From Diprion similis (taxonomy: Eukaryota; Arthropoda; Insecta; Hymenoptera; Diprionidae): a stretch of DNA of 64,000 nt. The stretch lies in the NCBI RefSeq assembly GCF_021155765.1, contig NC_060116.1, positions 1,860,001-1,924,000 of the forward strand, in the 5' to 3' direction. The translations under genes and the position numbers were made by a program. Under the pieces are notes generated by a model. The model saw only the letters and a list, made by a program, of their open reading frames with translations, searched no databases and was not told the origin of the DNA. Positions within the stretch are counted from its first letter, which is position 1. Every line of letters starts with the position of its first letter. Below, piece by piece: positions 3,697 through 53,128 of this stretch.

Positions 3697-5933
3697 ATCT
3701 GTGAGTGAGTGTGTGCGCCCGTGCCGTTGTTGCCGAGCGTAACACCGTCAAGCGGCGGCAGGCGACCGTGCCGATTTTGAAGACGAGCGAAAGAGGATCA
3801 TATTGTATTTGCGAAAATATTAGATTGCTAGTGAATTTGTTTTTTGGAATTGTTCTGCCTTATTTTGGAGTTTTGAAATTGTTAACGAGTTTGCTTCGCA
3901 ACGATTCTATATTTGCATGATTTATCGAACTGTTAATGATTTTACGTCGCTTATTATTCGCCTAGTCGGTCGCTTGCCGCTCGTCACTTCTAGCTATTAC
4001 TGCTTGATTTTTGCCGTGTTATATTGAATTGTTTAATTTTGTTGCTGAGTTATATTTTATTTTATTTTTATTTGTTTTTGAATTGTATCGAAGCGTACCG
4101 CCACCGATATGACCGCTTGCTGTGGATATATTTTATTTTCTGTGCTTTCTGCCTTGCCGTAACGGCTCTTTTTTTTTTAATAAATGCTGGTAATTACATC
4201 TATAATCATTTGATTATCTTCTATACTATTTCACCTTCACGCCCACGTTTCCCTCACCGCTAGCTAGTCGGCTGTTTTTGCGTGCTTGCCCCTGATATAG
4301 TTTTGATTTTCGAATTTGTCTGTGTGAGTTTGGTTCGCCGTTCGAGTCGGCGAACAAGTGCTATAGGACCGTAAATTTTGAACCTGGTAGGAGTATAGTC
4401 TCTTACGGCTCTCTCGAGCCTGGCGCCCAACACCTGTTCTGCAGTTCCGTCAATTATCACTTTTCCATCTTTCTACTGCCGTGTTGGTCAACGCCATTTT
4501 TGTAAACGAGCCTCTGTGCCGACCCCGCTTTCCCCCGGGTGAAGTAAAAAGCCCGTTACAGTACATAACGGTGAACTTTTCGACATCCTGAAGAATGCTC
4601 ACATTGAAACAGGGCACGGTGGCGTTCACAAGATGTATGAAGTGATTCATCGGAAATATCAAGATGTTCAACGAAAAATTATTCAATCATTTCTGCAACA
4701 TTGTAAAGTGTGCCAAAGAAAAAAATCTTTTCCGAAAAAGGGTGTCGTAGTGAAACCATTATTGTTGAAAGAAGTAAGTGCCCGGGCGCAAGTGGATCTC
4801 ATTGATATGCAATCTTGCAAAGATCAAGACTACAAGTTTATTTTAAATTATCAAGAGCATTTGACTAAATTTGTACTCCTCAGGCCTTTAAAAACGAAGA
4901 CCGCTGCAAAAGTGGCATACGTTTTAATTGACTTGTTTTGTGTATTCGGTGCTCCTGCAGTGCTTCAGCCAGATAATGGAAGTGAGTTCGTGAATTCGAT
5001 CATAAATGAACTCTCGCTCTTGTGGCCTGGATTAAAAATTGTCCATGGGAAACCTCGCCACTCTCAGGAGCTAGGGAAGCGTAGAGAGATCAAATCGAGA
5101 TGTGGAAGATATGCTGCGGGCGTGGATGACTGATAATAATACGACAAAATGGAGTGAGGGCTTGCGTTTCGTTCAATTTCAGAAAAACAATAGCTTCCAT
5201 ACGGGAATCAAGCAGTCACCCCACCGGGCGATCTTTGGTCGAGAAGCGAAATAAGGGTTGAAGGACTCGGCATTGCCACAAGAAATATTAGCATTATTCA
5301 ATACGGAAGAAGAAATTGAAGAACTTCTAAATAATTCCACCTCCAGTTTATCTTCAATTCCTGAAGAAAAAACTATAGCCGAGACTCACGAGAGTATTAA
5401 GCGAAGTCATGAGGTTGCATTTCAAGGCCTGGAAAATCAAACAAAAAGAATGAGACTTGCTAGTGATGCTAAATTCAAACCGCTAGAGAGGGGAATGTCT
5501 GTATTATTACCGGTCCCCGATGTTGACAAGAGCAAGGCCGATTCAAGGAATTTAATAGGTAACTTGCTGATTCTATTTATTTTTCTCTTACTATGATTAT
5601 CATTATTAAAGCTAGTATTATGATACAGGGGTCATCATGAATGTAACTAAAGATGGATTTTATAAGATCGGAACCCAGAGCGGAATTATTTCTGAATTAT
5701 TTAGTAGGAATCGAATAGCCCCAGCTACGGCCGAATTTCTTCAGGGGAAGGATGTCCCTGAACAAACTACTTCTGTTAGAGCAGCCAATAACAAGTCTTC
5801 GTTGGTGGGAGGGCAAGGTTTCCTCCGATGCTCTTGTACTACTAAATGTAAAAATAACCGATGCATCTGTAGAAAGAACAATGTTTTATGTAACTCGCGT
5901 TGTCACAATTCTAGTTCGTGTTGCAATAAGTAA
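2531..5933 (+). pseudogene. GIN/KRBA2/SCAND3-like integrase gene, broken
   Basis: Coding sequence upstream of 2572 resumes at 4561, after a solo LTR, with an HHCC zinc finger (HIETGHGG...CKVCQRKK, about 4594-4715). A retroviral-type integrase core follows (VDLIDMQ about 4795; LQPDNGSEFVN about 4964). Frameshifts after about 5060 and a stop near 5252 break the C-terminal part of the core. The downstream segment 5258-5558 ends at a GT donor (5559). A second exon from 5629 to 5933 continues in phase and encodes a Cys-rich tail (CSCTTKC, CRKNNVLCNSRC). Domain order matches arthropod KRBA2/SCAND3-like proteins related to Ginger/GIN integrases. It is a pseudogene from both the LTR insertion and the frameshifts. 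Confidence 0.75.
2573..4560 (+). mobile_element. Solo LTR, family B copy 1 (1988 bp)
   Basis: The unit starts TGTGACGTGG, ends CCGTTACA, and is flanked by GTAC on both sides (2569-2572, 4561-4564). Joining the flanks restores a plausible integrase reading frame, so the duplication is real. A second copy, inverted and full of nested insertions, lies at 35458-49190. It contains a C22 tract (3116-3137) and a GA microsatellite (about 3668-3697). Open frames inside it are short and not conserved in the second copy. No internal retrotransposon region is present, so this is most simply a solo LTR of unusual length. Confidence 0.8.
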
Positions 5934-40237: not shown

Positions 40238-40521
40238 GGGGGGCTGAGTCCGGTTGTTTGTGGGTGCCGGGTGGCAAGGCCGGTCTTATCCATTGAATAA
40301 AGAAACTCAGGAAGAAGCATAGAGTCTAAATTTCAATGGTGGGGGTAAAGCGGTAGTGACGTCATAAAACTGAACCATTCTCCTTTTGGCGGGCTATTAT
40401 GAAAGTGCCCATACTCACCGAGTTTCTTTATTCAATGTACTCACCTGAACTCCGGCATCACAGTCAAAACATAACCTCAATAGCGGTTACGCATAAGATC
40501 GTGCTGCATATGTAAATAATC

Positions 40522-43500
40522 ATGGTTAGTTGTTGTTCTTGTGGTTATTCACGAACAAAAGGCCATAAAAATGACGCAGTATCATATCATGCGTAAGTAC
40601 AATCATATTTATGACAAACTTTATTATACCGGGACCATCTCTAGAAAGTAAACAGCAACTGCGCATGCGCCAAATAATTCAATCTCATTGGTCAGCGAAA
40701 TTGCCCCACGGCGTAATTTTCGTCAGCAAACCAAGGGGACCAACATACAAAAAATATGACAAGGCTGTGAATCTCTCGCGCCTAAAGTAGCGGATTGAGG
40801 TTATGTTAATATTTATTCCTATTTCGCGAGAATTGTCTAAGAATAGTGTCATTCAACAATACCGTCGTCGATATTCGAAGATATTCAATCGACATAATAA
40901 AGGCTCGAATGGAGAAACAAATATCAAAAGCTGCAGAAATTGGGTTAGTTATTTATTGAAGAAATCTGAAATAAAATGTGAAACGTCATCAACGAGTGGG
41001 AGTCTAGACAAACTGAGGCAGGTAAGTGAAAATATTGTTTATCTCAAAAAGATTCTTTATTCACATAAAATTAATAATAAGTACATTGTTGAAACCCAGT
41101 AGAAGGTAGCTCCGGAGTAGATTTCTTACAGTGCAGTACTCCAGAAACCAGTTATCAGTGCCGATGAACATGAAATGAGTAATTAAATCAGTAACAAGGA
41201 ATAAAAATTAATTATTGATTGTAAACACAAAGTTTAGGAGCACAAAAAGTTAGCGATCACAGCAAACGTACTTGACAAATGTCCTAATACCCTCAAAAAC
41301 CCTCAAAGACTCCGTTGAATAGTTGACAAAGTTTATGCAAGTCCATTGTACAACAGTCGATGTTCCGTTAACAAAGAAGAGTTCACCAGACATCCAAGTA
41401 CGAGAAGATAAAAAGGACAACAGTTAATTTCACAGTGTAACTCATGTTACTAAAGAAAAATTAGGAAACAACGCAATAACGTACAGGACAATCATCCCAT
41501 AGCTCAAGGAGACCAATCTTCACTTCCGTGATAAAAATAAATGGATCGTTGAATCTCAGTAGAAGGTGCCTCCGGAGTAGATTTGTTACAGTGCAGTGGT
41601 CCCGAAGCCAGTAATCCGTACCGATAAACATGAAATAAATAAATAAAATCAGTAACGAGAAATAAAAAAAAATTGGGTATCTTGAACACAAAGCTTAGGA
41701 GTACAAAAAGTAGCAAGTCACAGTAGACGTACCTGATGCAATACCCTAAAAAAACCCTCGCTGACTCCGTTGAATAGTTGACAAAGTTTACGCAACTCCA
41801 ATGTACCACAGTCGATGTTCAGTTAACAAAGAAGGGTTGACCAGACATCCAAAAACAGAAAAAGAACAGCAGTCAATTTTACAGTCTAACTCGTATTATT
41901 GAAGGAAAAAGTAAACAAAACGATAACTTACCGGACAATCGTCCTACAACTCAAGGAGACCAATCTCAACTTCCCTACTGATCACACATGATCATCTGGC
42001 CACTGGTTCCCTTTCAATAAATGCTCAAAATGCCCTCCAGCAGCTGCAGCGCAGTAACCGAGCCGATCGTAAAATGCATTTGTCGTGTTCGATATAACAT
42101 CTGGCGACAGGTTCTGCAGAATGTCCAAAATTCTGGCTTGCAGTGCTGCAAGGCCTTCAATTCTACCTTGTGCATAGAGAACATTTTTCAAATGGCCCCA
42201 CAAGCCATAGTCCAGAGGGGCGAGATCAGGGGAACGAGCTGGCCATGCCACCTCCGGGCTTCCTCTACCGATCCAACGTCCAGGGAACTCTTGGTCGAGG
42301 TAATCCCGGACGGCTCGTGTAAAGTGAGCCGGGGCTCCATCCTGCTGAAACCAAACAGGTTTGCCCTAAAATACAGAAAAAGACACGTTACTTTTAGTAA
42401 GCATAACAAGTATTTATTTCAAAATCACAGGGAGTCTGCTAATAAAAAGGCCCCCCTCACACGATAAGGTACACTCACGATTTCTTCTTCAATCAGCCTA
42501 AGAGCTGGTACGATGTGGTCCCTAAGTAACCGAAGATACTTTTCACCGTTGAGGTTCCCATCGATGAAAAATGGCCCGATCAGCCGATTACCAATGGCGC
42601 CGAGCCAGACGTTGAGCTTCAACGGGTACTGCGTGCCGGCCTGAATGAACAGACGAGGGTTGCTTCGGCACCAGGCTCTGGTGTTCTGCCTGTTGGGTTT
42701 TCCGAGAAGTATCACCGTACTTTCATCGGAGAAACAAATGCGACTCAACAAGCCCTCATCTGCATTCAGACGTTCCATCATCTCTTGGCTGAAGCGAAGA
42801 CGATTATCGCCATCACCAACCAAGAGTTCGTGATGTACTTGAAACTTGTACGATTTGTACTTAGCTTCACGCAGCACTCTTCTGACCGACGCCTTGGAAA
42901 TCTCAAGCTCCTGTGCAACATGGCTGGTTGGCTTGAAGGGATCCTCTTCGATGGTCAAGCAGATGTCCAGCTTGGTATCCCAACTTAGTTGCCGGTTTGG
43001 CTGGACCACTTTCTTCGTCCTCTCGTCGACACTCCCAGTTTGCTCAAACTTCAGGACCATGTTCCTGATTGTCGTGATGGACGGTATCGGTCGATCCGGG
43101 TGGGCAGCCGCGAAATGATCTCTGTTTTCCCGGTACGTCAGTCCTTGATGGTGATGCTTCACCAGCTCCACTTTTTCTTGAACAGAAAACTTGTAATTAG
43201 GCATTTTCAACCTGTAAAAAAACTTCACAAAAGGATTACGATACTTATCAAACACGAGGTTCACCACGTGCAATCTTTTTGCCAAGTGGCCAGTTTACGC
43301 GCGCGGGAGAGTTTATATTCGCGGGTGGAGAAGTTGGGAAACTTTACAGATAGATGATTTGATTGGCTGATATCGGTCGCGACGTTGGTCTCATCCAATC
43401 AGATTGTGGTAGCTGCGTGATTTTCGCGCCCTCGCGGGTGTTTTTCAGTATGCACAGAATTATGATACGTACTATTGTCTGGCTAAATACCACGTGGTGA

Positions 43501-46500
43501 TCTGTTTCTGACTTTCAGTTTAAGAAATCGATATCCTTCCTTATCATTACGTGGGAAAACATGGAAATGGTTCCGCGATGAGAACGGCGACGTTTAATTA
43601 CCGCGTGTTCAGCGGTTCGGGTAAACAAATTTTGATAACCTCGCGAGCATGATGTGACATTCGCGATTCGATGAATTTTGTTGATTTCGGGAAAATATGG
43701 ACTATAAGAAAAATTAACAATTCAAAGTCAATAAATGGAACTTACAAACGCATCACCTGAAACGATATCCAACGATCGGTAACTCGTGATTGTAATTTTC
43801 GAACGTGGAGTCAGTTGATGTCACATGGCAATGAGTTACAATAACGTTCATTTTTCATGCAATTTTTTACAAATCAGTTGTGTCCAAAAATATTAGAAGC
43901 TCCTAACTGATCATGATACCTTCTAATATTTTCAGATAGGAAACAATCCATCATCGAAGTGGGACTAAAGTTGTCAGGCATCGAAGCGTGTAAGTAAATT
44001 TCTGATTCTGTGATCTTTGCATATGACAATATTTTCACGTGTATTTAATGATAAAATTCGTCTTTTTTGGTAGGCTCAAAGTTTCAAGTGTGGTTAATGG
44101 GAGGAAAATCATACCTTACCTAATGGTCCAAACGTTGATGGCAAGGACCCTGATTTCTCGATTGGTGCCACCATTCCAACCATCGACCCTGATTGTTCCG
44201 TTGTTTCATCAGGCAACAGATACCCAAGGGAATTTCTTCAGGTCGTCGCCACCTTCTGAACATCAGTTGAGACAAAACTAAAGAGCACGACACGCCACAG
44301 ATCATGATTTCTAAATATTCGATCATTTTAGATTGATCGAGCCAATAGTAATAAGTTTGTTTTTCAACAGTTGCTACTAATTAATTTTGCCGAGGAATCA
44401 TTCCGTGCACCATTGTAATCCAAGCGGTATTATTAGCTCGCATTTCTTTTCAAATTTTATTCTTTTTAGTTTTGATATTTTATTTCTTACTCTCTTGGTA
44501 TTCAATTCAGATGAATAGTGTTTCAAGTCTTGAATCAGATTCTACGAATGAGTTTTGATAGGTAAATTGAACCAATCTCAATCTAACAATGTTGGATAAC
44601 TTCAGTAGAAAATATCTTTGAAGCCAATATTAATTGACGGTATCATCTGACTAGCTAGTTGCAGCTATCATCCATGCTTCAGTCTCGTTCAACTCCAGCA
44701 ACGTCTACAGAATGCATTCACTTACTAGTACACGTTACAAATGATCACTTGGTCTACAGTAGGATTTACTTGCTGGCTAACTTTTTTATTATGAATCTCT
44801 ATCAGGGAGTTATCCGGTAACTTCTCGATAGCTTGAAACCAGATTCAATTTTACACTCTTACCATGGTCCTTCACTTAGACTGAAAGTTTGTGAATCTAC
44901 ATTTATTACAATTACTTCTGCATCCCATATTAACACTGTCCGAAACAAAAAAATCTCATCCTGAGATTGGAAATGGAACTCGCAACGCAAAAGTTATCTA
45001 GTGGCACAAGTTGAAAACAAGGAATTTTATAACGGTTTCAGCGACATAGGAATTCCTTCCGCATATTCATGTTACCGGATGATGTTCCGAGCACTATGAA
45101 GAAGATACTTTATTGGATTTAGGTTTGAGTCTATTGTTCTTAAATAACAGCAAGTAGGAGATTATTTGAGAAAATGTTTTCATGAACTTCGTTCAAAATT
45201 AGGTATTCATTTGTTTCAAAGGAACAAGGGCTAGAATCTTGAATTTGATAAGTTAATATCTTCATATTATTGATCTGAACATTTCTCTAAAACATGGTTA
45301 TCCTGAAAGGTAATTGTGATACTGAGGTACATTTTGAAAATGTCTATTTTCAAATTGGTCACAGAATGTTCCTCAGTTTTACTCTTCGGAATAGATTTTC
45401 TTTGTTTCGAACTGCACCAACATGAAATTCAGAAATTATTCCAGTAAATGAAATATTTTGATTTTAGTATTAGGTTCCTTTCATTTATTTCATCGAACAT
45501 TGCTGAAAATTCACAAAATGAACTCGAATAATTATTGGGTAATTTTCTGTAGTCGTAACAACAATTTTGTTGAACTAAATTCTAGAAAAAGAGATTCACA
45601 GTTGTGTTATTAACGGTAAGATATTCCAATTTCTTGAACAATCAAGAATCATCAAATCTAATGTTACCTTCTGAAATTACCAGAGAGTGACAAAGTTGAT
45701 TAAAAGATATGTTGCACGCGATATGAAATTAAAAGAAACTGTAAGACCCACAACTTCTTCCAACAACCAACAAAAGAAGTGATAATGTTTGCATGTGTCA
45801 TGAATTGAATAGGGGGAGCAGATATCAGCGAATAGCAGAGATGCAATTATTTTTACTGTATTGTCTGTTGATAGAAAAAAATGTCATTTTTATTCTTAAT
45901 GTATGAAGTAATGAAAATGATTGAATAAATTGTCCCTACTTACCTGCTTTGTTTCTTCCAAGCACCAAACATTTAAACAGATTTCTTGTTTCACTCGATT
46001 AAGACGAATTGTAAAAGAGCATTAGCATTAAATTCCGACCGTTCTTTCAAGAATCAACTTTCTGGCGCAATGACAAATACTTCCCAAGCCTTTGCGAGTC
46101 ACTACCTCGATTATTTGACACTCTAACCTCAAAATAGCGTATGAACTACATGGCCGACAAAAACAAAGGTTGACAGCTGAAATTCGGGGTGGCCAGACTG
46201 CACGGACGGCGGATTCAAACTCGCGCATGCGCAGTTGCTGTTTAGTTTCTAGAGATGGTCCCGGTATACAGATAACTAGAAGAATGCAGTAAATTCGATA
46301 TTTCAAATAAGAGGTTAGGTATGACATTCTATTTACAATTGATTCTCGAAGAATGATTATAGTTTAATGTACATCAGTTGTTTTTTAATTTTTTGTTGCT
46401 AATTTTATTTTGTCATTTTCCCGTATTAAAAAAAATTGTTTCAGATTTCCTAAAAACTTATTGTCAAGGCAGGCATGGATCAAGTTTGTCGATATTCCGA

Positions 46501-47937
46501 ATTGGGAACCAAATGATAACACTAGACTGTGTTCTAAACATTTTGCTGAAAATTGTTTCGATCGATCTGGAAAAATCGTTCGCTTGGTCGATGCTGCTAT
46601 TCCGACTATACGAATTGAGCGATTCAAATATGTTCGCAATATGCCAGTGGAAGTTCAAATTCCAGTACCCCAAACAGATTTTTCGAAATATACATCTATG
46701 GTATATAGAGTAAACTAATTGTTCATGATATTTAGCAATAAAATAATAATAAAACCGGTCTAAATAATTATGTTTGTATTACTTACAGGTTGCACATAGT
46801 TCCGATTACATGCCAAGTTTGAACGAAAATAATCAAGCTTGCACATCGTTTGCCGGCAAAGATATCACTGAAGAAAATTCTATCATAATTGATGATATCA
46901 ATTCTTCAGGTAGGATGACAATTCATTACACGACAGATTTAATATTAATTGTAATATAATTCATTTTTGTTTATTTTCTTTTATTAAAAAAATTAAAATT
47001 CCAAGATGGAACATTGGTGGTAAAATCTAACAGTAAAACTGGATTTGTATGTCTTTTAATAGCAATGAAAAGCTTGATAAATATCTACGATAAATTCGTA
47101 AGGGAGTCAAACAGTTTAAAGTATATTCCAAGCTATAAACTCTGCCAAGACCATTTGGAATTATTTTTCGGATCAATTAGATCACGTGGGGGTTATAACA
47201 ACAATCCTACTTGCTCTCAATTCACAGCGGCCTATAAAAGAATTTTGATTCATGCAGAAATTCGTGATCATGGCGCAGGCAACTGTGTTCCATTGGATGA
47301 AATAAATATATTGAAATGTAGCTCTTATAAAAAAAAGAACGAGAATACGTGCGCTACTACTGTTGCTACTCCATCGTTAAGCGATAATATTAAAGAAAAA
47401 TCATTTCAAGTCGAAATACCGGATCACGATTACTTTCCTAATTGTTATTTATCTCGTTTTGTTAGAGAAATTGTTATTTATATCTCAGGGTTTGTTGCTA
47501 AGCAGTTATTGGAACGGATTAACTGTCAAAACTGTACTAATTCTCTAGTCGCTGCCAAAGAAAATCTCGAAAATACGTTCGTAGCGTTTAAAGATCAGGG
47601 ACATCTTGTTTATCCTAGCGATACTCTGATAAATATATGTATGGAAGCAGAAATAACAATACGTTCAATCTTTGACGGGGAATTACCGAGTGTCGATTTG
47701 AGAGAAAAGATTGAAAATCAAATATTAGACAAATATGTAGAAGGAAAAGTATTTGCCGAGTTTGTTACGCATGATCAAACAACTGTTGAAGAACATGTCG
47801 TTTCTTTAATTAAGTCAATTGTGGAAAAATATTATAAGTTAAGGATGTATCATATTTGTAGGGAGGCTATGAATAATGAAAAGAAAGAATACATTCGGAG
47901 GTCTTATACCAAATTAATATTGTTCAAAGGCCAATAA
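40522..47937 (+). CDS. P-element THAP protein lacking the catalytic core, 459 aa
   Basis: Four exons join in phase: 40522-40592, 46445-46700, 46799-46919 and 47006-47937, all GT/AG, with no stop in 1380 nt. Exon 1 (MVSCCSCGYSRTKGHK) and exon 2 (FPKNLLSRQAWIKFV, CSKHFAENCF, AAIPTI) form a complete C2CH THAP DNA-binding domain. Exon 4 has the conserved C-terminal part (YKLCQDHLELFFGSIRSRGG, NNNPTCSQF, YISGFVAKQLL). P transposases are about 750-900 aa. The stretch holding the N-terminal RNase H half with its aspartates and the GTP-binding insertion is absent between exons 3 and 4. The product could bind element ends without cutting, like the KP repressor of Drosophila. Intron 1 is 5.85 kb because of a nested transposon. 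Confidence 0.82.
41070..41980. repeat. Tandem duplication of about 455 bp
   Basis: 41070-41530 and 41531-41980 are diverged copies sharing CAGTAGAAGG, CTCCGGAGTAGATTT, TTGAATAGTTGACAAAGTTT and CAAGGAGACCAATCT. The short elements at 31153 and 50434 have only one unit. The second unit abuts the transposase stop codon. Confidence 0.8.
41982..43204 (-). CDS. Mariner/IS630-type transposase, two exons, 369 aa
   Basis: Exon 43204-42479 (726 nt) and exon 42365-41982 (384 nt) join in phase 0 over an intron with GTGAGT donor and TTTTAG acceptor. I start at MPNYKFSVQEK because an acceptor-like TTTACAG lies just before it. Residues 1-130 form a DUF4817-like pair of helix-turn-helix segments (DRPIPSITTIRNMV; ISKASVRRVLREAKY). 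The catalytic triad is CFSDEST, then WFQQDGAPAH and SPDLAPLDYGLWG in exon 2; the last two aspartates are 43 residues apart. No stop or frameshift is seen, so the protein may be functional. TA-flanked ends of the surrounding element are its plausible substrate. Confidence 0.85.
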
Positions 47938-49194
47938 TAATAATAATCATATCAGTTTCATTTGCACGATGCATTTGCGTTTATTTATAAGACAATAACA
48001 AACTTTCTCTACTCTGTACATTTAGCTCTTTCTCATATTTCTCTCTTCTTCTATGCTCTTCACACCTCTTCCTTTTCACAACCCTTTTTTTTGACTATTT
48101 TCTCTATTTCTCTGAAGTATTTACATATTCCTTCATCTTTTTTTCCACTCTCTCTATATTTCTGGATCATAACCTCTACCCCCAATTGATTAAAACAATA
48201 AACAATTAATGTTTTAATTATTTTTAGCATTTCCCCAAGCCGCTTACGTCATCTCATTGATTACAAAAATCTTTTGAGGCTCATCACAACAACTTCTCAA
48301 AGTCTAAGGACGACATCAAAACAGCAGTGGAGAAAGGGTAACAGTATTAATTATACAAAATTTAGGACCTCTTTTTGAATTCTAGATTTTTCAGATGCTT
48401 CACAATGAATTTAAATTGTAAATATATTGAATTGCCAATTTTTTTGTACTCCTGGGTAATCTGAAACGATTTTTCGCCACCAGAGAATAATAAAAATTGT
48501 AATAAACTGATGTTCATTCTGAGTATTATTATCATAACTATGTGGTTTTAAATATTGTTGACTAACAATATTTTTCTAACGCTGAAGGGACGTAAATCAT
48601 TATTTATAATACCATTTTACTTTACTGAACTACGTGTATCGTATGGCTTTTTTAATGTAGTTTAAATCTACCGCCACGCGCAACTTCCGGTGACGTCATA
48701 CGTGACGTCATAAAACTAGGCCATTCCCGCATCGCCCCTTCCACTGGCATGCTCCTTCCTGAGTTTCTTTATTCAATGGTCTTATCGGAGGCTCAGGTGG
48801 AGGCAACTCGACCCCTGGGCGGCAGCGGCAGCATGTCCTTGGCGACATCGAGGTCCGAGCAAGCCACAGCGCGACTACTGGGTCCGGGGCTTCGAACTCC
48901 GCGCCGGTCGTCCTGTGGTCCCTCTGCGTTTCCCGCGAGGCAGCGCAGGGTGGTCGTTGGATGGCGTCGGCATTGGCGGCGGCAGTGGTCGCGGCAGTGG
49001 CGGTCATCTCAGAGAATGGGTTGGGGGAGTATCAAAGAGCATTAGCAACAATACATGAATCTTGAAGCTAACTCTGGTTGTTCATTGGCGGCACGGCAGG
49101 ACTCTCCCTTGCTCTTTAAGAGCGCTTGACGCGGCCGCCTGGGAGTAGAGGTGCGGGTCGGTGACGGGCTGGTAGACCCGCCACGTCACAGTAT

Positions 49195-50431
49195 ACATCA
49201 TCAGACTCTTCGCCAACGTGCATGAAATCAAAATCATGTACTCGATGCACCCATTCAAAATTTCTACAAGGCAGGTACTGAGACATCGCCCAACCATATA
49301 AATTATTTACGTCTAAGTAGAGCAATGATTTGGTTTCCAACTGCGGATTGTAATCTATCATATATTTATTATTTGCCATTACTGTATCGATTCGAGCATT
49401 GACTCAATCCTCCACGCAAGCCTCCTTCAATGAACAGCAGCATATCAACGTCCGTGAGCAATTCAAGCTGAATTTCGGTGTTGAAAAGCATGCAATCCCA
49501 AGTGAAACCGGGTAAGGTACAGTAGTTTGCTGGATCTAGCTTATATATTCGGAGGCAATTATCGCGGAAATTTTGAAAGACGTCTGCGAGGAGCATTACG
49601 TCAATTTTCAGATACAAATCACTATACTCGCCCAGTGTTGTGATATTAAAACTGCGCCAAACGTTCTGTGCATGAGCATAGTCTTCGTCCTCAATATTTT
49701 GGTCGTTGAATACGTTGTAAAATGATTCTTTCGAGGGTAATGAGCGTTCGTTCAGTCGGTCAGCTTCGGTCACGTAATCATACGGAAATATCCCTTTGCA
49801 GGTTAGAAGATTGAATTGCGAATCTGTGGCGTTGGGGAATTGACATTTCAAATTCGTTAAATCATTGTGCCGCAGGTAAGAACTTAGTTCGCCTAAACTT
49901 GAATTCATATGCCAATAGGAATCGATGAATTGAAGTCTTACGGCGAGGCTGTGAAACGTCTGGGTGAATGCTATGTACTTTTCTTTGGTAATTGGTAGAA
50001 CACTGAGCGAGGATGATTTATTATCAGCCAATTCACCGATTATGAAGTGCGCATCGTAACCACTCAAGTTGTGGAATACAACGGGTACGGTGCGATTGAG
50101 TTTGTAATTCAGATTACAATTTGAATGTGCAGGCCCGCGATATAGTCCTGTAACATGACAATGATCCTTCACGCGATCATTTAGATGCACAAATTTTAGC
50201 TCGCAAATGTGACATACTTCAGCGTTTTCGAACTCAGTCTGTTGTTGACCAGACAATTGATACATAGGTTTCTTTTGATTGAAGTATTCAGCTACCCTGA
50301 CTGCGATTCCGTGTAATTGATGGGCTAACCATTTCTGACAATCGACACCTCGATAGGAATTGTAGTATGATAGCGACTCATCGTGACTACATTTAAAATA
50401 ATAACCTACGCTATATGGTACATGTTTCTTA
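49195..50431 (-). pseudogene. Polinton/adintovirus-type DNA polymerase B, N-terminal part
   Basis: The minus strand encodes an HNH/endonuclease VII-like zinc segment (CHICELKF, DHCHVTGLYRG, HSNCN). The exonuclease region follows (HNLSGYDAHFIIGEL), then the first palm motif (LYLDVNNLYGWAM). A one-base frameshift lies near 49383. The sequence stops at the family B solo LTR (49190), and its continuation is at 35453. At the upstream end it meets a TA-flanked transposon at 50432. Together with the convergent chromodomain this identifies the host element as a Polinton-like relic of virus-related origin. Confidence 0.85.
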
Positions 50432-50433
50432 TA

Positions 50434-53128
50434 CCGGGACCATCTCTAGAAACTAAACAGGAACTGCGCATGCGCCAAATGATTCAATTTCATTGGTCAG
50501 CGAAATTGCCCCGCGGAGTAATTTTCGTCAGCTAACCAAGGCGACCAACGTACACGAAATGTGACAAGGCTCTGAATATCTCGCGCGTAAAGTAGCGTAT
50601 TGAGGTTATGTTGATATTTATTCCTACTTATCGTGAATTTTCTACGAAAAGTGGCATTCAGCAATACCGTAGTTGATATTAGAAGATATTTAATCGACAC
50701 AATAAAGGCGTCAATGGAGAAACAAATATCAAAAGCCACAGAAATTGGATCAGTTATTTATTGAAAGAAGAAATCTGAAATTAAATGTGGAACGTCATCA
50801 ACGAGTGGGAGTCTAGACAAACTGAGGCAGGTAAGTAAAAATATTGTTTATTTCAAACAGATTCTTTATTTACATAAAATTACAAATAAATGGATTGTTG
50901 AAACCCAGTAGAAGGTTGCTCCAGAGTAGATTTGTTACAGTGCAGTGCTCCGGAAGCCAGTAATCAGTGCCAATGAACATGAAATATTAAAATAAAATCA
51001 GTAACAAGGAATAAAAGAAATAGTGTATCTTGAAACACAAAGCTTAGGAGTACAAAAAGTAGCAATTCGTTTTTCTGTCGCAATTTATTGAAAATTAGTG
51101 GTATTCAAAACAATTAGAAGCTCTTGTCTGATGATAATATCTTTTAATATTTTCAGGTGGAAAACAAACATCATCGAAGCGAGACTAAAGTTGTCAGGCG
51201 TTGAAGCGTGTAAGTAAATTTCTGATACTATGATATTTGCATATTACAATATTTTCACATGTATTCAATGATAAAATTCGTTCGTTCTGACAGACTTGAA
51301 GTTTCAAGTCGGATAATAGGATGAAAATCATACCTTACCTGATGGTCAAAACGTTTTGGTGGCTAGGACCCTAGTTTCTCGATTGGTGCCACCGTTCCAA
51401 CCATCGAACCTGGTTGTTCCGTTGTTCCATTAGACAACAGGTATCCGAAGGAATTTCTTCTGGTCATCGCCATCTTCTGAACATCAGTCGTGGCAAAATT
51501 GAAGAGCACGACACGCTACAGATCATGGTGTTTGAATATTCCATTATTTTAGATCTATCGAGCCAATAGTAATAAGTTTGTTATTCAACAATTGCTGCTA
51601 ACTAATTTTACAGAGCAATCATTCCGTGCACCATTGTAATCCAAGCAGTATTATTGGCCCGCATTATTTTTCAAATTTTATTTTCGGCAGTTTTGATATT
51701 TTATTTTTCACTCTCTTGGTATTCAATTCAGATGAATGGTGTTTCAAGTGTTAAATCAGATTCCAAGGATGAATTTTGATGTGTAAACTGTACCAATCTC
51801 AATCTAAAAATGTTGGATAACTTCAGTTGAAAATGTCTCTAAAGTCAATATTAATCGACAGTATCATCTGACTAGCTAGTTGCAGCTATCATCCGTGCTT
51901 GAGCCTCGTTCAACCCCGGCAAGGTTTAAGGAATGCATTCACTTACTAGTACACGTTACAAATGATCACTTTGTCTACAATAGGACTTACTTGCTGGCTA
52001 ACTTTTTTATGATGAATCTTTATCAGGGAGTCATCCGGTAACTTATTGAAAGCTTGAAACCAGATTCAATTTTATACTCTTACAATGGTCCTTCATTGAA
52101 ACTGAGAGTTTGTGAATCTCCATTTATTACAAATAATTCTGCATCCCATGTTAACACTGTTCGAAACAAAAAATCTCATCCTAAGATTGGAAATGGAATC
52201 TGCAATGCAAAAGTTATCTAGTAGCACAAGTTAAAAACAAAGAACCTTATAACGGTTTCTGCGACAGAGGGATTCCTTCCGGATATTCATGTTACTGGAT
52301 GATGTTCGGAGCACTATGAACAAGATATTGTATTGGATTTAGGTTTAAGTAAATATTTTCATGAACTTCAGTGAAAATTAGATATTCATTTGTTTCAAAG
52401 GAACAAGGGGTACAATGTTGAACCCGATAAGTCAATATTTTCATATGAATGTTCTGAACATTACTCTAAAACATGATTATCCATAAAGTTAATTGTGACA
52501 CTGAGGCACATTTTGAAAATGTTGATTTTTAACTTGTGTCACAGAATGTTTCTGAGTTTTACTCTTCGGATTAGATTTTTTCAGATTAGATTTGAAATTG
52601 AAAGAAACCCTAAGATCTACAACTTCCTTTTTCAACCAACAAAAGTGGCCGATGATCTCTGCATGTGTCATGAATTGAATGGGAAGAGAAGACATCAGCG
52701 AACAGCAGAGATGCTATTATTTTGGCTGTATTTTCTGTTGAAAGAAAAAAATTTCATTGTTATTCTTAATGTATGAAGTAATGAAAATGATTGAATAAAT
52801 TGTCCCCACCTACCTGCTTCGGTTCTTCCAAGCACCCAACATTTGAACAGATTTCTTGTTTCAATCGCATAGGACGAATTTTCAAAGAGCATCAGCATTA
52901 AATTCCGACCTTTCTTTGAACAATCAATTTTCAATAACAAATGCTTCCCAAGCCTTTCCGAGTGACTATGTGAATGACTTGAGATTCTAACCTCAAAAAT
53001 GCATGTGAACTACATCGCCGACAGAAACAGAGTTTGACAGCAGGGTCTCGGGGTGGCCAGACTGCACGGACGGCGGATTTAAATTCGCGCATGCGCAGTT
53101 CCTGTTTAGTTTCTAGAGATGGTCCCGG
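50434..53128 (+). mobile_element. TA-flanked DNA transposon, deletion derivative 2 (2695 bp)
   Basis: Same TIRs, TA flanks (50432-50433, 53129-53130), orientation and internal deletions as the copy at 31153-33848; the lengths differ by one base. It apparently inserted into the upstream part of the PolB gene, since a minus-strand open frame can be followed on both sides. No transposase is encoded. Confidence 0.9.

Follow-up and report, generated by a model that had tools for sequence, protein, structure and literature searches.

In Drosophila melanogaster, non-autonomous P elements with internal deletions are described as 0.5 to 2.8 kb long (PMC7776569). The KP element retains the 199 N-terminal residues of transposase (PMC4938643), and the 66-kDa product formed when intron 3 is retained is described as differing from transposase by about a third (PMC7776569). 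Both the deletion products and the intron-3-retained product are described as repressing (PMC7776569; PMC4938643), and telomeric P copies as acting through piRNAs (PMC4938643). The transposase has a coiled coil between its linker and its HTH (PMC7776569). Its cuts leave tails of 17 nt, and where excision sites have been end-joined, the 8-bp duplication encloses parts of these tails (PMC7776569; PMC2895639). Internal deletions of DNA transposons are known to arise by abortive gap repair (PMC8700633).

The locus described here is a P element of about 8.5 kb at positions 40291-48778 of the window, that is, of the whole 64,000-nucleotide stretch of Diprion similis DNA that was analyzed (genome contig C12). 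The original prediction had given 40522..47937, an interval that covers the exons; the whole element is wider and is flanked by the 8-bp target-site duplication (TSD) GTCTTATC. A search of the genome with the THAP exon returned 22 matches. Apart from the window itself, one match, on contig C1, was near-identical (99%); the best of the others reached 44%. The near-identical match belongs to a 4321-bp P element (L031, G000:C1:15727645-15731965) with its own 8-bp TSD, GTGCCGAC. This sister copy is the one longer member of the same family found in the search of the genome for full-length relatives. The two copies are about 98-99% identical outside indels (98.5% and 99.0% in two aligned pieces; 90.9% in the left piece, which contains a 26-bp footprint insertion). 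The ends of the window copy are as follows.

40283..40290, no strand: left 8-bp TSD GTCTTATC, identical to 48779-48786
40291..40320, plus strand: left terminal inverted repeat (TIR), with a single mismatch at position 25 in this copy; the repeat of the sister copy measures 30 bp
40356..40371, plus strand: subterminal 16-mer GTGACGTCATAAAACT, with a same-orientation repeat near the right end (from the sister-copy repeats and alignment)
48690..48717, plus strand: GTGACGTCA motif of the right subterminal region, present twice in tandem (once in the sister copy) and followed by TAAAACT (from alignment)
48749..48778, minus strand: right TIR, 30 bp
48779..48786, no strand: right 8-bp TSD GTCTTATC, a perfect match to the left one

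The TIR is perfect in the sister copy, where GTGACGTCATAAAACT is found at element positions 66-81 on the left and 4245-4260 on the right; these 16-mers are a candidate transposase-binding site. The doubling of GTGACGTCA is a 12-bp tandem copy present in the window copy only. The terminal 17-mer CATTGAATAAAGAAACT had five exact matches in the genome, four of them element ends and the fifth internal to the window copy. With one mismatch, 6 further places were found, as opposed to 7 for the reversed control at up to one mismatch. The 17-mer is specific to the P family of the window copy, all five exact places being explained. By contrast, a 12-base tip noted earlier failed as a family marker, with 44 + 43 genome matches against 40 + 31 for its reversed control. 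A DNA search with the element returned 9 pieces, namely the two copies and their ends, plus a 101-bp piece (74%) on contig C10, which sits where the search for P-like loci places a diverged one. By the 17-mer and DNA searches, the family amounts to two elements and one probable footprint in this genome.

Both copies carry the TIR and 8-bp TSD of the P superfamily, and the family has its domains: THAP, a P-type HTH, and an RNase H split by a GTP-binding insertion. The THAP match was scored on the window protein and the others on the sister copy, whose exon-4 frame of 787 aa contains HTH (residues 68-148), RNaseH_N (154-286), the GTP-binding domain (331-450) and RNaseH_C (521-555; Pfam). Among structure entries, this frame matches that of Drosophila P transposase (6p5a, E 5.6e-25). 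It holds Asp184, Asp273 and Glu529, which we take to be catalytic by resemblance to the Drosophila motifs. The P-type transposase of the sister copy and the 8-bp TSD recall THAP9 and Pdre2; however, the TIR is given as 13 bp in Pdre2, as opposed to 30 bp in the sister copy (PMC10983969).

The following features set the window copy apart from its sister.

40412..40445, plus strand: probable footprint left by excision of a P copy, 18 nt matching the P terminus (40420-40437) between two copies of TACTCACC (from alignment)
40625..46268, no strand: unrelated transposon nested in intron 1 and lacking in the sister copy; its 46-bp inverted ends are 98% complementary
46989..46994, plus strand: deletion junction with 6-bp microhomology AAAATT; sister element positions 1041-2548 missing

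Relative to the sister copy, 1508 bp are missing from the window copy, and AAAATT stands at either edge of this segment. Gone with it are the last part of intron 3, including what by eye is its likely acceptor (element position 1110), and 473 residues from the start of the exon-4 frame, among them HTH, RNaseH_N with both catalytic aspartates, and the GTP-binding domain. Of the two origins first offered for the open frame, a recent deletion is supported, because a nearly identical sister copy retains the 1508 bp. The 17-mer and DNA searches of the genome turned up no second copy of the deletion form. The window copy keeps its ends and lacks an internal part of a longer copy of the same family; it is very probably a non-autonomous, internally deleted P element.

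Like the deleted P elements of Drosophila, it has kept both ends and the 8-bp TSD and lost the interior of the transposase gene. It differs from them in that its family is distant, only one deleted copy was found in the genome, the C-terminal part is kept in a possible reading frame, and its length is 8.5 kb owing to the nested insertion. Internal deletion and, probably, excision leaving a terminal remnant, both known from Drosophila P, also occur in a distant P family.

The AAAATT microhomology at the single junction suggests an origin in gap repair. A break in the P element, from excision or otherwise, would have been repaired by copying from the sister chromatid; copying would have ended early, and the ends would have closed at the short shared word, producing the 1508-bp deletion. 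The remaining gene would then be open owing to the small number of accumulated mutations, not to retention of its product. Since both ends are preserved, the window copy may be mobile at most in trans, with transposase supplied from elsewhere; its own product has neither catalytic aspartate.

At the footprint, the sister copy has a single TACTCACC and no 18-nt terminus. The simplest reading, taken from this single junction, is that a third P copy probably inserted at 40412-40445 and was then excised, one tail being trimmed away. In this one case, the 18-nt terminal remnant between 8-bp repeats would fit a staggered cut of about the 17 nt typical of the P superfamily. The inverted tip at 40420-40437 had raised the suspicion of a composite MITE at the left end, which was dropped in favor of a footprint after alignment with the sister copy.

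The gene model consists of four exons.

40522..40592, plus strand: exon 1, start of the THAP domain (GT/AG borders, in-phase joining)
46445..46700, plus strand: exon 2, remainder of the THAP domain (99% identical on contig C1)
46789..46909, plus strand: exon 3, linker
47006..47937, plus strand: exon 4 of the earlier model, RNaseH_C with the catalytic Glu and the C-terminus (acceptor AG 47004-47005 is coding in the sister copy)

The length of intron 1 is due to the separate 5.6-kb transposon inserted in it. As had been predicted, the four exons join in phase with no stop and have GT/AG borders; the joined frame encodes 459 aa. Pfam detects THAP at residues 6-79 (E 1.1e-13) and TNP-like_RNaseH_C at residues 193-227 (E 2.1e-20), a 35-residue piece holding the catalytic Glu, and no further family at E <= 0.001. 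The catalytic core is skipped as described, in that RNaseH_N and the GTP-binding domain are gone, but the loss is wider and extends to HTH and to the segment that joins it to the linker.

The statement that splicing is intact did not hold. The likely native acceptor of intron 3 is deleted, and the acceptor used for exon 4, AG 47005, lies within coding sequence in the sister copy. Two of the seven AGs in 46940-47120 are in phase with exon 3 (47005, giving 459 aa, and 47062, giving 440 aa). The other five are out of phase and give 150-159 aa; CAG 47033, for example, causes a frameshift and a product of 157 aa. If exon 3 is skipped, AG 47106 gives 385 aa and the other AGs at most 120 aa. With such alternative AGs, exon skipping and intron retention also possible, the 459-aa product is one of several predicted outcomes. 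In-phase continuation from a cryptic acceptor is about a one-in-three accident, and this counts against our preferred explanation, an open frame left by a recent deletion.

The sister copy is a doubtful candidate for an intact autonomous partner, its frame being open with some acceptors and not with others. From its acceptor at element position 1110, the strongest when acceptors are ranked by eye, the frame meets an in-frame TAA after 154 aa; acceptors further inside exon 4 (e.g., 1176) give an open frame of 920 aa.

Between the two copies, the shared coding sequence differs by 10 substitutions in 1377 aligned bases, 8 nonsynonymous and 2 synonymous. With both lineages pooled, dN was 0.0073 and dS 0.0072 over the 1377 coding bases (NG86). 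The proposed dN/dS comparison could be made between the two copies, where the ratio is about 1; across copies of the deletion form there was nothing to compare, since that form was found once. Non-coding sequence carried 15 substitutions in 1429 bases as opposed to the 10 in coding sequence (25 in total; Fisher P 0.42). The coding sequence has changed at the rate expected without strong constraint.

A random change in the shared coding sequence creates a stop in 4.3% of cases, and about 25% of the non-stop changes are synonymous. The chance of no stop is 0.80 for 5 random substitutions and 0.64 for 10. The open frame therefore needs no selection, because so few changes have accumulated. The probability of two or fewer synonymous changes among ten is 0.008 or less for a dN/dS of 0.2 or lower, 0.04 for 0.3 and 0.17 for 0.5; these figures pool both lineages, and ten substitutions give modest power. 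Weak constraint on the shared coding sequence (dN/dS near 0.5) is possible, as ten substitutions are few. The shared coding sequence contains no indels, as opposed to four events outside it (small indels at 48084 and 48690, one where the nested insertion borders the element, and the footprint); with so few events, this argues mildly against full neutrality.

Polarity was examined for the five exon-4 amino acid differences, using the best 38 of 161 protein matches. Leu166 of the window copy agrees with the relatives, all 38 of which are hydrophobic at this site, and the His of the sister copy does not. Ser449 of the window copy is rare (2/38 rows), with the Phe of the sister copy in 8/38 and gaps in 6/38. 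The other three sites were too variable to polarize. Both copies look to be drifting. In a domesticated P-derived host gene, the terminal repeats are lost and the coding sequence is under purifying selection; the window copy has terminal repeats and a TSD, and its dN/dS is about 1.

The other origin first offered for the open frame was selection for a DNA-binding repressor, with KP as the parallel. Like KP, the window copy is a deletion derivative, and its product could be a THAP protein that lacks catalytic function. The parallel is weak, however. Only 149 residues, THAP and linker, precede the junction, as opposed to the 199 N-terminal residues of KP, which rules out a KP-type architecture; a C-terminal part of 310 residues follows, and HTH, RNaseH_N and the GTP-binding domain are lost. 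Retention of intron 3 would, as for the 66-kDa repressor, give a THAP protein, but on paper it is a THAP-only product of 165 aa, with no HTH or RNase H.

A KP-like or 66-kDa-like repressor under selection would be a THAP protein of 459, 440 or 165 aa that binds P ends and blocks transposase. The open frame with its THAP domain, the predicted 165-aa product, the indel-free coding sequence and the repressing products of Drosophila all agree with such a role, which is possible but unsupported. The 8:2 ratio of nonsynonymous to synonymous changes and the single occurrence of the deletion form speak against it, as do the loss of the region that is a coiled coil in Drosophila, the 5.6-kb insertion in intron 1 and the loss of the likely native acceptor. 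In addition, no clearly intact target of the same family was found in the genome, given the in-frame TAA of the sister copy with its by-eye strongest acceptor. Taken together, we consider selection for a repressor improbable. Where the acceptor is new and the copies diverge by about 1%, a post-deletion frame that splices on paper does not show that its protein has been kept.

It is just as doubtful that the window copy matters not as a source of protein but as a source of P-derived piRNAs, in a cytotype-like control. Its position among other transposons (frames of hAT, Pao-type, integrase and viral-type DNA polymerase occur in the window) and the action of telomeric P copies in Drosophila (PMC4938643) would fit such a role, but a transposon-rich neighborhood is common and non-specific. 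Less probable still is a regulator made by the deletion itself, in which THAP, fused to the C-terminal domain through the cryptic acceptor, would bind the ends (as a monomer or with the C-terminal part) and compete with the transposases of the family. An assembly error that hides a full-length copy is hardly credible: the window copy is known from the genome assembly alone, but its junction has a clean 6-bp microhomology, 25 substitutions separate it from its sister, and the nested insertion, the footprint and the TSD are its own. The feature is largely real, yet ordinary.

On its minus strand, the nested transposon has a transposase-like gene split over two frames: 42425-43204 matches a Tc3-type HTH weakly, below the cut-off, and 41985-42365 has no Pfam match. 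Its left 141 bp matched at 91-100% in all 40 scored genome places, the window included, a lower bound since 40 were scored among 299 first-look candidates. At least 39 further places match its left end at 91-99%, which suggests that it was recently active.

Among the matches listed, the closest protein to the exon-4 frame is P0002 (55% identity), and the best named proteins are from arthropods (aphid, 43%; moth and beetle, 37%); fish THAP9 is present among the best 120 of the 161 matches. Distant P-like loci in the genome comprise 69 matching pieces, two of which are the window and sister copies. Several diverged loci (e.g., L054, L057, L059 and L063) have open frames of 600-930 aa. Two P-like loci on contig C3, at 18275978 and 18554286, lie on opposite strands and score identically, which would fit a duplicated segment. 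Just right of the P element, on the minus strand, window positions 49372-50445 encode viral-type DNA polymerase B and endonuclease VII domains, perhaps a Polinton-like remnant.
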